Shown: in pieces, positions 158 to 8,187 of the stretch
Position numbering within the stretch: the stretch's first letter is position 1
Layout of the letters: every line of letters starts with the position of its first letter
Origin: an uncultured Flavobacteriales bacterium
GTDB taxonomy: Bacteria > Bacteroidota > Bacteroidia > Flavobacteriales_G > Salibacteraceae
Direction of reading: 5' to 3'
Length of the DNA: 64,000 nt
Assembly: GCA_913062955.1 (NCBI GenBank)
Contig: CAJXZP010000007.1
Coordinates: forward strand, 1 to 64,000
Notes under the pieces: generated by a model
What the model was told of the DNA's origin: nothing
The model's input: the letters and a program-made list of their open reading frames with translations, nothing else
The model's database searches: none
Program-made: the position numbers and the translations under genes

Positions 158-646
158 TTACTCCGCGGGTTCTAACGTTCTAAAATATTCCGCAACCGCA
201 CGTGCTTCCTTTATCGTTAAATTTTGGTTGGCCATAGGAGAAGAATATTCAGCCAATAGTACCTTTGCTATGGGATCATTTTGAACCATTTCATCTGGAT
301 TCAAAATCATATTCATGACCCAAGCCGGATTTCTACGGTTATAAATACCTTGCGGAGCGGGTCCTATGTATCTTTTATGTACTTTATGACAAGCCGCACA
401 TTTTGCATCAAATATTGCTTTGCCTGCTTCTGCCATTTCGAAATCAACTTCTTCGTCAAATTCCAATTCATCAATGGGTCCAATTCCAATATTCTCCATT
501 GGATCTACTTCCTCAACTACAAGATCTTGCGTAACTGTTTCAACCGTTGTAGATGCCGAATTCGTTACGTCCTTTTTTTCTTCGCCACCACCACAAGCAG
601 TGAAAACACTTGTAAGTGCTACTAATACTAATGCTTCAAACTTCAT
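158..646 (-). CDS. Class I cytochrome c lipoprotein
   Basis: Predicted exported mono-heme cytochrome c that shuttles electrons at the periplasmic face of a membrane. The N-terminus is a lipoprotein signal (hydrophobic stretch ending in LTSVFTAC, lipidated Cys near residue 18), followed by a low-complexity acidic linker to about residue 70. The heme-binding motif CAACH lies near residue 85, and SPMANQN near residue 138 supplies the likely distal Met ligand, so one complete cytochrome c domain is present. It stands alone on its strand with its own -7 promoter box and a downstream hairpin, so it is probably a single-gene transcript. The electron partner cannot be told from the sequence; the di-heme cytochromes at 4.6-6.7 kb are possible users but are not adjacent. 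Confidence 0.85.
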   Translation of the reverse strand: MKFEALVLVALTSVFTACGGGEEKKDVTNSASTTVETVTQDLVVEEVDPMENIGIGPIDELEFDEEVDFEMAEAGKAIFDAKCAACHKVHKRYIGPAPQGIYNRRNPAWVMNMILNPDEMVQNDPIAKVLLAEYSSPMANQNLTIKEARAVAEYFRTLEPAE

Positions 647-3790: not shown

Positions 3791-4579
3791 ATGTCAAAAC
3801 TTACCGCACTTATTACTGGAGCCTCAAGTGGTATTGGTTACGAACTCGCCAAAATTCACGCTCAAAATCATTATAACTTAGTTCTTGTTGCCCGAAGCTC
3901 AGATAAATTAGCCAATGTGAAAAAGGAATTGGAGTACCAATACCCTGTTAGCGTCCAAATACTTGCCCTTGATATATCTGTCGCAGTTAACATTCAAAAA
4001 CTAACCGATTTCACCGATTCTCAATCCATCCGAATCGACCATTTAATTAATAATGCAGGTATTGGTGTTTATGGAAAATATTGGGAGACCTCTGTAGAAG
4101 ACCACCTTAAACTTATTCAACTCAATGTAAATGCTCTGGTGGCTCTCACCCATCACTACAGTAAAAAAATGGTTGCTCATGGAAGTGGAAAAATTCTGAA
4201 TGTGGCATCTACGGCCGCTTTCATGCCGGGGCCGTTTATGTCGACTTATTTTGCTTCTAAAGCTTTTGTATTGTCTTTTGGAGAGGCCGTAGATAGTGAA
4301 CTTTCTGATACGGAAGTTTCTTTAACGACCCTTTGTCCAGGACCTACAAAAACGGGGTTTGAGGCCGCAGCGAGCGGTATGAAGGAATCTGGATTATTTA
4401 CTAAATCAAAAGTAGCGACTGCCAAAGATGTAGCTCTAGATGGTTACGATGCAATGATGAAAGGAAACCCGGTTATTGTTTCCGGACTAATAAATAAACT
4501 AAATGTCTTTTCTATTCGATTTAGTCCAAGATCATGGGTAATTGCCATTACCAAAAGCATTATGAAACCCGTTAATTAA
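3791..4579 (+). CDS. Short-chain dehydrogenase/reductase
   Basis: Cytoplasmic NAD(P)(H)-dependent oxidoreductase of the classical SDR family. The glycine-rich cofactor motif TGASSGIG is at about residues 9-16, the structural NNAG motif near residue 87, the catalytic Ser in VASTAAF near 139, and the catalytic Tyr/Lys in YFASK near 152-156. The length of 262 is normal for the subgroup that includes DltE-like and 3-ketoacyl-type reductases. LCPGPTKTGF follows the active site as usual. The substrate cannot be assigned. It has its own promoter and is convergent with the di-heme cytochrome gene; the two coding regions overlap by four bases at their 3' ends. Confidence 0.9.
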   Translation: MSKLTALITGASSGIGYELAKIHAQNHYNLVLVARSSDKLANVKKELEYQYPVSVQILALDISVAVNIQKLTDFTDSQSIRIDHLINNAGIGVYGKYWETSVEDHLKLIQLNVNALVALTHHYSKKMVAHGSGKILNVASTAAFMPGPFMSTYFASKAFVLSFGEAVDSELSDTEVSLTTLCPGPTKTGFEAAASGMKESGLFTKSKVATAKDVALDGYDAMMKGNPVIVSGLINKLNVFSIRFSPRSWVIAITKSIMKPVN

Positions 4580-5607
4580 TCCCAGCGCTTATCGTTAATA
4601 AACTCGAAATCTGACAAGGTTTTCAAAAATGCAACCAAGGCCTTTTTTTCCTCAAAGGATAATCCAAGAGGTTGGACGAGTTCACTTTTATTTACATGAT
4701 CATATCCACCTCTGTTATAATGATTTACAACCGCTATTAACGACTCCATTTTTCCATCATGCATATATGGAGCGGTAAGCCCTACATTTCGCAAGGATGG
4801 AACTTTAAATAAAGCACGATCTTGCCCTTCTCCAGTTAATCTCAGCCTTCCCGAATCCGTATAGTTCAGGTACAAACCATTGTTTTGAAAGGAGTGATCG
4901 GTAAAAAGCATCCCCCCATGACAAGAAGTACATTTTGTACGCTCCGAAAAGAATAACATCCTGCCGGAATTTTCTTCCCTATTTAATACGTTCTGGTCTC
5001 CATTTACAAACTTATCATAGGGACTCGTTCCACTAATCAAGCTTCTTTCAAAAGTAGCAATGGCACGCGTTATTACGAAAGGATCTATCTCTCGGTTATA
5101 GGCCTCTTTAGCTAATTGTGCATATTTCGCATTATGAGCCAATTTCACGGAAAGGTCCACAATATTAAAATCAAATTCGTTATGTTCATCAATAGGTACC
5201 AAAACCTGCATTTCAAGGGTTGGAACCCCTCCTTCCCTCAACAAATAGGGGAAGTAACCTACATTAGCTAAACTAGGTGAATTACGTTTCCCTGAACGAT
5301 TTTCTATTCCTGGGCTCGTACTTCTATTATCCGCAAAAGCAAATTCTGGTTTATGACATGAGGCACAACTTATCGAAGAATCTCTAGACAATACAGGGTC
5401 AAAAAATAGCATTTTTCCTAACTCCCATCTCTCCCTACTAAACTCATTATCCGTAGGAAAAAAGACCTCTGGAAACCCCATAGGGATTTCCAGAGGTGAC
5501 TTTACTTTCATAGAAGCATACTCTTTTGTACAGCCCGTTAAACCCATAACCATACTAACAATCAGCACCTGTAAACAAAAAACACACCTTATCGAAGTAA
5601 ATCTCAT
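4576..5607 (-). CDS. Di-heme cytochrome c peroxidase/MauG-family protein
   Basis: Exported di-heme protein of the CcpA/MauG superfamily, whose members either reduce peroxide or oxidise amino-acid side chains of a partner protein. The signal region ends in MGLTGC, suggesting a lipoprotein. Two heme motifs are visible, CASCH near residue 86 and CTSCH near residue 230, the latter followed by the conserved PYMHDG segment near 284. It is the last gene of an apparent operon MbnP-like > di-heme > di-heme, separated by gaps of only 3-4 bases. The MbnP neighbour favours a MauG/MbnH-type role (Trp oxidation) over simple peroxide removal, but sequence alone does not separate them. Confidence 0.88.
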   Translation of the reverse strand: MRFTSIRCVFCLQVLIVSMVMGLTGCTKEYASMKVKSPLEIPMGFPEVFFPTDNEFSRERWELGKMLFFDPVLSRDSSISCASCHKPEFAFADNRSTSPGIENRSGKRNSPSLANVGYFPYLLREGGVPTLEMQVLVPIDEHNEFDFNIVDLSVKLAHNAKYAQLAKEAYNREIDPFVITRAIATFERSLISGTSPYDKFVNGDQNVLNREENSGRMLFFSERTKCTSCHGGMLFTDHSFQNNGLYLNYTDSGRLRLTGEGQDRALFKVPSLRNVGLTAPYMHDGKMESLIAVVNHYNRGGYDHVNKSELVQPLGLSFEEKKALVAFLKTLSDFEFINDKRWD

Positions 5608-5610
5608 GTG

Positions 5611-6699
5611 TTATTGATTTGGATCTGAAAAATCAGGATTGGTTAAAAAATCATCGTCCGTCAACGTCTTCAAAAACGAAACTAAATCTGATTTATCCGT
5701 GGCATCCAATCTTAATCCTGTACGCATGGTATTTCTAAGAGTAGGGTCCAAGGTCCCTGATCCTTTAATCCCAGAATTATAGTGATCCACCACTTCTTCC
5801 AAGGTTTGAAACCTACCATCATGCATATATGGGAAGGAAACCGCTATATTCCTTAGTGTAGTTACTTTCATTTTACCAATGTCGTTCACACTACCGGTCA
5901 CCTTTTCTCTGCCATTGTCAGTAATTTCCGCATCCGTGAATAATCCATTGTTCAGGTATTTATTATTCTCAAAATTCGAAGGGGAATGACAATGGGCACA
6001 ATCTGCTCCGGAATCATCTGGAAAAAACTCATTATATTCTGTGAAAAACAACTTTCTTCCACGCTCTTCACTAAGCGAAAGGGTTAGGTCTCCTCTTAAA
6101 TATTGGTCATATTTACTGTTATGAGAAACTAAACTATTCATAAATTGCTCCAATGCCAATGAAATTTTATAGCTCGTAATTTCACTTGATCCAAATGCTC
6201 TAATAAACTGCTTTTTATAAACTAACTCAGCAGATAGTTTACTCACCACATTATCCAGAGTCTCATCCATTTCCAATTCATCTTGAATCGGTAAAATGGA
6301 TTGATCTCGTAACAAATGTGCTCTACCATCCCAAAAGAACTCATTCCCATTCCAAGCCATATTAACAATTGCCATGGCTTGTCTTTTCCCGGGTAATCCT
6401 CTAACCCCAATGGAAAGAGTATTGGTATCTGAAAAGGCATGTTTTTGTCGATGACAAGAACCGCAAGACATGGTTCCATCATTAGACATCTTGGTATCGT
6501 AAAATAACATTTTGCCCAATTTCACCCCTTGTTCTGTTAAGGGGTTATCATCGGCAATGGTAGGTGGAGGCAATTCACCATAATACATCACATACGGAGT
6601 TTCATCCAAAATGATAGGTGTTAACTCTTCGGTATCGTCCGCACAAGAGCCCATAACGAGGACGCTTCCTACTAGGAAGAATTGAAATAATCTATTCAT
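5611..6699 (-). CDS. Second di-heme MauG/CcpA-family cytochrome
   Basis: Paralogue of the following gene, with the same layout: a lipoprotein-like signal (VLVMGSC near residue 19), a first heme motif CGSCH with HAFSD close behind (residue about 80), a second heme motif CAHCH near 236 and the conserved PYMHDG near 293. Segments LGKMLFYDTKMS and VNMAWNGNEFFWDGR are typical of the bacterial di-heme peroxidase family. It lies three bases upstream of the next di-heme gene and four bases downstream of the MbnP-like gene, so all three are probably co-transcribed. Having two non-identical di-heme enzymes for one substrate candidate is unusual; one may be a peroxidase and the other the partner-modifying enzyme, or they may act in series. 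Confidence 0.9.
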   Translation of the reverse strand: MNRLFQFFLVGSVLVMGSCADDTEELTPIILDETPYVMYYGELPPPTIADDNPLTEQGVKLGKMLFYDTKMSNDGTMSCGSCHRQKHAFSDTNTLSIGVRGLPGKRQAMAIVNMAWNGNEFFWDGRAHLLRDQSILPIQDELEMDETLDNVVSKLSAELVYKKQFIRAFGSSEITSYKISLALEQFMNSLVSHNSKYDQYLRGDLTLSLSEERGRKLFFTEYNEFFPDDSGADCAHCHSPSNFENNKYLNNGLFTDAEITDNGREKVTGSVNDIGKMKVTTLRNIAVSFPYMHDGRFQTLEEVVDHYNSGIKGSGTLDPTLRNTMRTGLRLDATDKSDLVSFLKTLTDDDFLTNPDFSDPNQ

Positions 6700-6703
6700 C
6701 GCC

Positions 6704-7660
6704 CTATTTTATTACCGAAACCCTTTGCGTAGAAATCAAAAGATCATTTTTATAAATATGGATCAAGTAAATTCCTTTTTGAGCAAACTCAACCACTATT
6801 TCATTATGATTTCGAGTGAACTGACAAGAAACTTCTTTACCCAAAATATCTCGAATTTTGATTTCCATATCGTCCATTCCATCTCCCGTTACATGAACGG
6901 TTTGTGTGGAAGGATTTGGAAATACAATCACATCCATGGATGTGGCAACATTTTTAATTGAGTTTGGGTCATTTAAAGAAGCTGTAAATACATACCTACT
7001 ACAATTTACAAGAGCCTCCGCTGGAATCCCTGTTTCTCCATGATACAAAGACCCCGAAGAAATATCAATTTGATCCAACACCTTTTCGTAATCGGCATCC
7101 AAATTAATATTTAACGTATTTCCATTTTGTTCCCCTGTGGTTGCAATCGTAACGGTGTAAAGGTTTGCATCCCCTAAAGCGTGAATTTCAAAGACTAAAT
7201 TCAAATTTGGCCCCGAAAGCCCTTCCATTGCCAAGAATCTATATCCAGAAGCCCACCCCCAGTGCATGGATGGTGATTTGGGACCTAATGGATGAAAGTT
7301 GGTATAGGATGAAGGATCCAGGTGGTTATAGTCCGATTCTACGCCTACTGCAAACGAAATAGATTCTAACTCCGTAATGGGAAAAGAGCCTAAATTTTCG
7401 TTTACCTCAATCCCTCCATTCACCAATATCCATAGATCATCCATATGAGTGGAGACACCTCCATCATGCGTTAACGTAATTTCAGAGATATAATATTCTA
7501 ATCGATTAATCGTAAAACCATTTCCTAAGTCATTCGTACCGGTTTGGTTAAAGTTAAACTCTGAATTTCCCAAAAAATGAGAAATGTTTAAATAAACATC
7601 CTTTTGCGCAAACGAAAGTTGCGTCAATAGACTAAAAGCAAGAAGTAATATTGTTTTCAT
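6704..7660 (-). CDS. MbnP-like copper-binding protein with T9SS sorting domain
   Basis: Surface or secreted protein of the MbnP family (copper-binding partner of MauG/MbnH enzymes). The start at 7660 is preferred because it begins directly with a signal peptide (residues 1-19, ending SFAQ); an upstream in-frame start would add a charged 11-residue prefix. The MbnP-like domain covers about 20-235 and contains the family's MHWGW..GY segment with Trp at 134 and 136, plus EYYISEI and many His residues. The last roughly 75 residues form a type A T9SS C-terminal domain (VFPNPSTQTVHV ... KGIYLIHIY). In methanotroph MbnP a Trp is converted to kynurenine by the di-heme partner; the two di-heme genes directly downstream suggest the same here. 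That part is inference. Confidence 0.82.
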   Translation of the reverse strand: MKTILLLAFSLLTQLSFAQKDVYLNISHFLGNSEFNFNQTGTNDLGNGFTINRLEYYISEITLTHDGGVSTHMDDLWILVNGGIEVNENLGSFPITELESISFAVGVESDYNHLDPSSYTNFHPLGPKSPSMHWGWASGYRFLAMEGLSGPNLNLVFEIHALGDANLYTVTIATTGEQNGNTLNINLDADYEKVLDQIDISSGSLYHGETGIPAEALVNCSRYVFTASLNDPNSIKNVATSMDVIVFPNPSTQTVHVTGDGMDDMEIKIRDILGKEVSCQFTRNHNEIVVEFAQKGIYLIHIYKNDLLISTQRVSVIK

Positions 7661-7745
7661 TTTATATTTTTTATCCAGTAATAATTCGCCCATAATAAGA
7701 AAGGACGAAATAAATCACTTATAGTTTCCAAATCATTTTCAGGGT

Positions 7746-7770
7746 AAAATAGGGCGGATTTAGCCCTGTT
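7746..7770 (-). terminator. Weak terminator after the HYC_CC_PP gene
   Basis: A five-base AGGGC/GCCCT stem with a seven-base loop, followed by ATTTT on the minus strand, directly after the stop of the HYC_CC_PP gene. The stem is short, so termination is only probable. Confidence 0.4.
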
Positions 7771-8187
7771 TCAAATGAGTATGGATTGATACAAAATGGA
7801 AAAATCTTTAATTATTTCGGGAGGAGATTCAAAACAAAAAGACACCTTCTTTTCTGCTTCAAACACGTTTACATTTTGATTAAATAATTGGAATGGAATT
7901 TCAAGAACAAAAGGACTAACAGGAAGAACCACCGGATGTTGGTAGTTATCATCTAGCTGATGAAGTTCATGTTCATTTGAACAACAGGGTTCCGATTTTT
8001 TTTGATGCATGGGACAAGATGATTCATACTTCTTCATTCCACACGTTAAATCCTGTTGAGTTAAGGTAATGGCTGTTAAAACCACCCGACCACCGCAAAT
8101 ATGTTTAGTAACCGTAAACCCAATAGTGCTTCCCACCATCAGAAGCATCAAGAATGCACTTACTACTAAATTAAAAATTGCCTTCAC
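7771..8187 (-). CDS. HYC_CC_PP-family small membrane-associated protein
   Basis: Small Bacteroidota family named from three motifs. Here they appear as KHICGG (near residue 28), EPCCSNEH (near 67) and ESPPE (near 120). An N-terminal hydrophobic segment (residues 4-24) would export or anchor it. Additional Cys and His residues (TCGMKK, SCPMHQKK) make it a plausible metal ligand. Family members often lie beside metal (copper) uptake genes, and here it directly precedes the MbnP-like/di-heme operon on the same strand, about 110 bases away. Translation starts at GTG. The biochemical function of the family is not established. Confidence 0.75.
   Translation of the reverse strand: MKAIFNLVVSAFLMLLMVGSTIGFTVTKHICGGRVVLTAITLTQQDLTCGMKKYESSCPMHQKKSEPCCSNEHELHQLDDNYQHPVVLPVSPFVLEIPFQLFNQNVNVFEAEKKVSFCFESPPEIIKDFSILYQSILI

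Follow-up and report, generated by a model that had tools for sequence, protein, structure and literature searches.

A recurrent Bacteroidota gene cassette pairing a type IX-tailed MbnP-family protein with two distinct di-haem enzymes

The first 64,000 nt of contig CAJXZP010000007.1 from an uncultured Flavobacteriales bacterium (the whole stretch analysed, hereafter 'the window') carry on the minus strand a cluster of four genes. These encode a HYC_CC_PP family protein, an MbnP-family protein with a type IX secretion system (T9SS) sorting tail, and two di-haem enzymes, named here HA and HB. Evidence from open reading frames (ORFs), Pfam and NCBIfam placed all four genes where the initial annotation had put them, with 4 bases separating the MbnP gene from HA and 3 bases separating HA from HB (Table 1). 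The mechanical ORF of the MbnP protein spans positions 7693-6704; its start was reassigned to an internal ATG at position 7660, which corresponds to M1 in 80 of 83 relatives. This start gives the residue numbering W134/W136, the same as that used earlier. The cluster was found to recur widely in the phylum, and is read here as a probable system for making a surface copper protein.

Table 1. Coordinates of the four genes and of their main features in the window
Feature	Position	Strand	Evidence
First gene of the cluster: HYC_CC_PP family protein (138 aa; rich in Cys and His; signal-anchor)	7771..8187	-	NF047658, E 1.8e-15, 57.6 bits vs cut-off 28
MbnP-family protein with T9SS sorting tail, 318 aa	6704..7660	-	PF20243 and PF18962 above curated cut-offs
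MbnP domain	7055..7603	-	PF20243 placement; model mean pLDDT (predicted local distance difference test) 93.6, best match 7L6G MbnP
M132-H133-W134-G135-W136 motif	7253..7267	-	Invariant in 83/83; W134 is the predicted kynurenine residue
His160, predicted copper ligand	7181..7183	-	82/83; aligned to the invariant HLGS His of true MbnP in 9/10 alignments
His207, possible second copper ligand	7040..7042	-	83/83 relatives
T9SS type A sorting domain	6719..6925	-	TIGR04183, 33.5 bits vs cut-off 23; in 66/66 members scanned
HA, di-haem enzyme, lipoprotein (Cys19, C-ADDTEE)	5611..6699	-	PF03150 (CCP_MauG), E 4.7e-55
HA haem 1 motif CGSCH (79-83)	6451..6465	-	CxxCH in 67/67
HA inter-haem Trp123 (MauG Trp93 position)	6331..6333	-	Trp in 67/67
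HA haem 2 motif CAHCH (234-238)	5986..6000	-	CxHCH in 67/67; extra His common to MbnH CHHCH
HA axial Tyr307 (Met in peroxidases)	5779..5781	-	67/67
Second di-haem enzyme HB (Trp-less clade), a lipoprotein with Cys26 (C-TKEYAS)	4576..5607	-	PF03150 (CCP_MauG), E 9e-48
HB haem 1 motif CASCH (81-85)	5353..5367	-	CxxCH in 67/67
HB Arg124, where MauG, MbnH and peroxidases have Trp	5236..5238	-	R 62, F 3, K 1, T 1, W 0 (n=67)
HB haem 2 motif CTSCH (226-230)	4918..4932	-	CxxCH in 67/67
HB axial Tyr297	4717..4719	-	67/67

When GTDB contigs were scanned with the MbnP sequence, 79 loci were obtained, some of them broken by contig ends, and these were annotated by profiles. Their named sources were all Bacteroidota (Saprospiraceae, Chitinophagales, Cryomorphaceae, Vicingaceae, Crocinitomicaceae and others). 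The tailed MbnP, HA and HB genes lay side by side, in either order, at 58 of the 79 loci; a survey of genomes for an MbnP-T9SS protein with two MauG-like genes had been suggested earlier. Culturable relatives that carry the complete set are Taibaiella lutea, Acidiluteibacter ferrifornacis and Phaeocystidibacter luteus. The gene orders recorded were MbnP-HB-HA (44 loci), MbnP-HA-HB (14), MbnP-HA (12) and MbnP-HB (7), with a median intergenic gap of 3 bases across the relatives' loci. Because the arrangement recurs across the 79 loci, chance juxtaposition can be excluded. Nineteen genomes, most of which have a single enzyme adjacent to MbnP, were searched whole; in 18 of them both enzymes gave strong matches, HB at no less than 388 bits and HA at no less than 564 bits. 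Among 148 genomes drawn evenly from the phylum, ten had a full or nearly full tailed MbnP (in G101, tail and MbnP were not recovered in one and the same frame). The HB clade accompanied the tailed MbnP in 10/10 of these genomes (Fisher test, 1e-14), HB assignments beyond the tree-placed sequences being made by score alone, and HA did so in 7/10 (4e-10). The three genomes with a tailed MbnP and HB that lacked an HA orthologue were G101, G059 and G041. HA orthologues (at least 490 bits) were found in none of the other 138 genomes of the draw.

The MbnP domain was recognized by PF20243 with an E-value of 1.6e-28 (100.3 bits against a cut-off of 27). When the structural model was submitted to Foldseek, the top six matches were all to 7L6G, the MbnP of a methanotroph (E 1.5e-7, probability 1.0), with template modelling (TM) scores of only 0.42-0.47. 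A PDB sequence search with the domain gave no match for the single sequence and, when run as a profile, matches to the tail only. W134 was aligned to the first Trp of the WxW motif of true MbnPs (members of TIGR04052) with every aligner setting. The fold match and this alignment bear out the proposed homology to MbnP, and of the two Trp residues that had been considered, W134 is the equivalent of the modified one, the conserved Trp being present in all 83 relatives. Also conserved among the 83 sequences were His28 (80/83) and the PxP of the tail (83/83). The MbnP of M. trichosporium reportedly binds copper through a His and a Met, its first Trp having been turned into kynurenine. The equivalence of His207 to the CMS Met of MbnP depended on the aligner: it was seen in one alignment, and not in most of the others or in hhalign, for which reason a firm equivalence was dropped and the correspondence kept as a possibility. 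If His207 did take the place of that Met, the site would resemble those of CorA and MopE, in which Cu(I) is surrounded by two His residues and kynurenine (PMC3912023).

The tail of the MbnP protein matched PF18962 (E 1.8e-9, above the curated cut-off). All 66 members scanned matched both the T9SS tail and TIGR04052, and the tailed MbnPs formed a single clade (support 100/94). The genome to which the window belongs also encodes SprA (2493 bits). Together, the tail and SprA point to type IX export, as had been proposed. The lipoprotein Cys was conserved in 67/67 HA and 62/67 HB sequences. In HA this Cys is followed by Lys and acidic residues, with an acid at position +4 in 90% of the sequences, compared with 23% of a small control of 22 other lipoproteins. 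This comes close to the surface-export signal of Capnocytophaga lipoproteins, C-X-K-(D/E)2 (PMC5080379). The strict form of the signal was found in 13/67 HA and 3/62 HB sequences, and the shorter C-X-K-(D/E) in 35 HA and 19 HB. Placement at the cell surface is thus likely for HA as a family, the signal of HB being less clear.

The residues of the enzymes were compared in an alignment of 67 HA and 67 HB sequences with MbnH (6E1C) and two peroxidases (1IQC and 1ZZH). The cassette has two di-haem enzymes against a single one in the described MbnP/MbnH pair, in agreement with the initial annotation, and their paired CxxCH motifs suggest that each would be loaded with two haems. MbnH (6E1C) was both the best PDB match of HA (E 1e-55) and the closest PDB match of the HB model (TM 0.84). 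The distal Gln, Pro and Glu were kept in nearly all HA and HB sequences, with a spacing exactly as in MauG; their MauG counterparts we take to be Q103, P107 and E113. The haem 2 axial residue is Tyr in all 134 HA and HB sequences, and Met in 1IQC and 1ZZH, so neither enzyme is a classical cytochrome c peroxidase. This bears on the idea, encouraged by the Pfam label of both enzymes (di-haem cytochrome c peroxidases), that the cassette removes peroxide at the surface and that the MbnP domain is merely an anchor or docking protein. Such a role appears very improbable, since not only is the axial residue Tyr rather than Met in 134/134 sequences, but an anchor would need neither an invariant MHWGW nor a near-invariant His160, and copper genes are found in the neighbourhood. 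A further alternative is that W134, with W136, is converted into a different product, such as a tryptophylquinone or a cross-link, in which case the protein would serve redox chemistry at the surface rather than copper binding. Both Trp residues of WxW are indeed invariant, MauG makes tryptophan tryptophylquinone, and the MauG family TIGR03791 was the second-best NCBIfam family for both enzymes; however, the MbnH model outscored the MauG model for both, and the substrate here is an MbnP, not an amine dehydrogenase. We therefore consider another product improbable.

The second-haem environment, which had been thought necessary for Trp oxidation, is present but for one part in HB: both enzymes have the axial Tyr, and the inter-haem Trp of HA is missing from HB. 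Outside the cassette, the di-haem enzymes paired with MbnPs of Bacteroidota, Deinococcus, cyanobacteria and proteobacteria keep this Trp, bar two (Tyr at locus L160 and Ala at L176). In MauG, the corresponding Trp93 supports charge resonance between the haems; BthA of Burkholderia, lacking an inter-haem Trp (it has Ser257), nevertheless forms bis-Fe(IV) (PMC6405878), so HB need not be inactive. It might still be that HA makes the kynurenine alone, as MbnH does, and that HB, instead of modifying MbnP, transfers electrons or scavenges peroxide and thereby protects or resets the system. HA possesses every hallmark of MauG and MbnH, including the inter-haem Trp and a CAHCH motif akin to the CHHCH of MbnH. 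Against this, HB was present in all ten genomes with a tailed MbnP, three of which have no HA orthologue, and it retains the distal Gln/Pro/Glu and the axial Tyr, features that mark modifying enzymes rather than peroxidases. Sole action of HA thus seems unlikely, although it deserves weight. What is surprising about the cassette is that the constant partner of a T9SS cargo is an enzyme without the inter-haem Trp; since HB lacks the Trp, the usual one-enzyme scheme does not cover the cassette.

The phylogenetic tree resolved HB as one clade (support 100/99), HA as another (99/94) and methanotroph-type MbnH as a third (100/99). HA and HB were not sisters; they are two old, separate lineages. The tree ruled out duplication of a di-haem gene within the operon, and the 'duplicated di-heme enzyme' of the initial annotation has to be abandoned, while its remaining elements (MbnP homology, T9SS export, two enzymes and a HYC_CC_PP neighbour) stand. 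Three arrangements are informative on the origin of the triad. In L169, a tail-less MbnP-HA pair directly precedes a tailed MbnP-HB pair; in G041, tail-less and tailed pairs lie at separate loci (L149 and L171); and in L170 (2531-5375) a tail-less MbnP is accompanied by an HB-type and an HA-like enzyme. These suggest that the triad may derive from two MbnP/di-haem pairs, one MbnP having since been lost. The same three arrangements would fit a merger in which the original target of HA was the tail-less MbnP and that of HB the tailed one, HA now acting on another MbnP or on none, or on a second protein elsewhere. However, at most loci HA adjoins the tailed MbnP with no second MbnP, and HA is rarely missing from genomes where the tailed MbnP occurs, both of which suggest that HA still has a role with the tailed protein. 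That HA serves another target today is therefore conceivable, if on balance doubtful.

Several related genes were observed in passing. In L036, L037 and L075, two or three tailed MbnP genes lie close together with one di-haem enzyme beside them. The genome of the window has a second, tail-less MbnP (MYWTW) on contig C4 (~55.2-57.4 kb; L183:5153-7400), followed by a decayed di-haem gene with stops; both of its haem motifs are missing, and what remains is HB-like (HSDGG..LELQ; C-terminal FLKSLTDE). On contig C35 (L182:103-1868), a third MbnP (MYWSW, no tail) overlaps by 4 bases a di-haem enzyme with an inter-haem Trp; this is an ordinary MbnP/MbnH-like pair and is followed by a T9SS-tailed protein. 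The HB of L170 has Phe at the position where all others align the axial Tyr. The di-haem enzyme at L176 (4202-5233), which accompanies a tail-less MbnP and does not belong to the HB clade, has Ala for the inter-haem Trp, an independent loss. The distal Gln is replaced (by Ser, Phe, Val or Leu), with Trp and Tyr retained, in the di-haem partners of the tail-less MbnPs at L155, L156, L159, L162, L163 and L164.

The HYC_CC_PP gene, noticed at the outset as a neighbour, recurs upstream of MbnP on the same strand in 34 loci; its name was absent from the literature searched. Heavy-metal genes were found within 6 kb of 36 of the 79 loci, a count made without a matched random control, and included CusA/B/C-type efflux, P-type ATPase, HMA and HMBD proteins (the CusA/C neighbour cluster was named from its sequence). 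The MbnP locus of D. radiodurans holds CopC and CopD; reference MbnP/MbnH loci were located through MbnH. Copper handling is the natural reading of this context, with which uptake and protection are both compatible. A plasmid search with MbnP gave two matches only, both from Deinococcus. In the window, the upstream neighbour of HYC_CC_PP is an aroA-like gene, and a short-chain dehydrogenase-like gene (3791-4579, plus strand) is convergent with HB, their ends overlapping by 4 bases. Near the cluster, positions 158-646 (minus strand) encode a small lipoprotein-like mono-haem cytochrome c (CAACH), a possible electron carrier.

We propose, with a probability of a little under 0.6, that the cluster is a conserved Bacteroidota cassette whose product is a kynurenine-copper protein exported to the surface and matured by HA, HB or both, with kynurenine formation and copper binding deduced from homology. 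The MbnP-family protein would be exported first by the Sec pathway and would reach the cell surface by the type IX system. HA and HB would serve it as outer-membrane lipoproteins, HA with the full MauG/MbnH equipment and HB as the Trp-less relative and constant partner. W134 would be converted into kynurenine by MauG/MbnH-type chemistry, with H2O2 as oxidant and hole transfer from the di-haem enzyme to its bound partner, and the modified protein would bind Cu(I) with His160 as one ligand and, probably, His207 or Met132 as another. The most likely division of labour would have HB dock on and modify the tailed MbnP, and HA supply or complete the oxidation or act on a second site. A bolder version, in which HB modifies without an inter-haem Trp, HB and HA form a two-step line on a T9SS cargo at or near the surface, and the kynurenine site is His/His and not His/Met, must be viewed as rather unlikely.

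Several results weigh against the proposed kynurenine-copper cassette. The window protein scored 37.6 bits with the MbnP equivalog TIGR04052, below its cut-off of 140 bits (true MbnPs scored 153-321 bits), and HA and HB scored 249.5 and 253.1 bits with the MbnH equivalog TIGR04039, below its cut-off of 362.85 bits. Both enzymes fell outside the MbnH clade that holds 6E1C, neither being an MbnH orthologue, and the inter-haem Trp was found in 0/67 HB sequences. A structural placement of the predicted copper ligands was not achieved, and no copper gene was seen directly adjacent to the cluster in the window, the rest of which was not scanned. Finally, the export signals of the window's own HA and HB (C-ADDTEE and C-TKEYAS) are imperfect, so these enzymes may face the periplasm; MbnP may alternatively be modified there, before export. 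If the proposal is true, kynurenine-copper proteins would extend to a T9SS-using surface version in many Bacteroidota lineages (10 of the 148 sampled genomes). It would also raise the question of where haem enzymes meet T9SS cargo. The cassette, which pairs a Trp-bearing enzyme with one that is Trp-less throughout its clade, would offer a natural test of whether oxidation of a partner protein requires an inter-haem Trp.

The combination of a tailed MbnP with HA and HB was not described in the literature searched. Among the closest known systems is the MbnP/MbnH pair of methanobactin operons (TIGR04052/TIGR04039; 7L6G, 6E1C), with which it shares the MbnP fold, WxW, a conserved His, an adjacent di-haem enzyme with axial Tyr and a copper context. 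It differs in its T9SS tail, in having MHWGW and an extra conserved His but no CMS/Cys pair, and in its two di-haem enzymes, which come from two other clades; both equivalog cut-offs are missed. The CorA/CorB and MopE/SACCP systems of methanotrophs combine, as proposed here, a kynurenine-containing Cu(I) protein at the cell surface with di-haem chemistry, but have one di-haem enzyme and not two. To our knowledge, neither involves a T9SS. SACCP is located on the cell surface together with MopE, and kynurenine-copper proteins that sit at the cell surface and have a di-haem partner are, in principle, already known (PMC3912023). MauG, which matures methylamine dehydrogenase, has the axial Tyr and distal Gln/Pro/Glu and modifies Trp in its partner, as proposed here; its partner is different, and its inter-haem Trp93 is missing from HB. 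BthA has Ser257, and HB usually Arg, in place of the inter-haem Trp, but BthA is distant in the fold search (TM 0.71), is a peroxidase that reduces H2O2 to water and has no MbnP partner (PMC6405878). The Deinococcus locus L091 (MbnP, a cytochrome c peroxidase, CopC and CopD) also places an MbnP beside a di-haem enzyme in a copper locus, but with a single enzyme that has the Trp and an MbnP without the T9SS tail.

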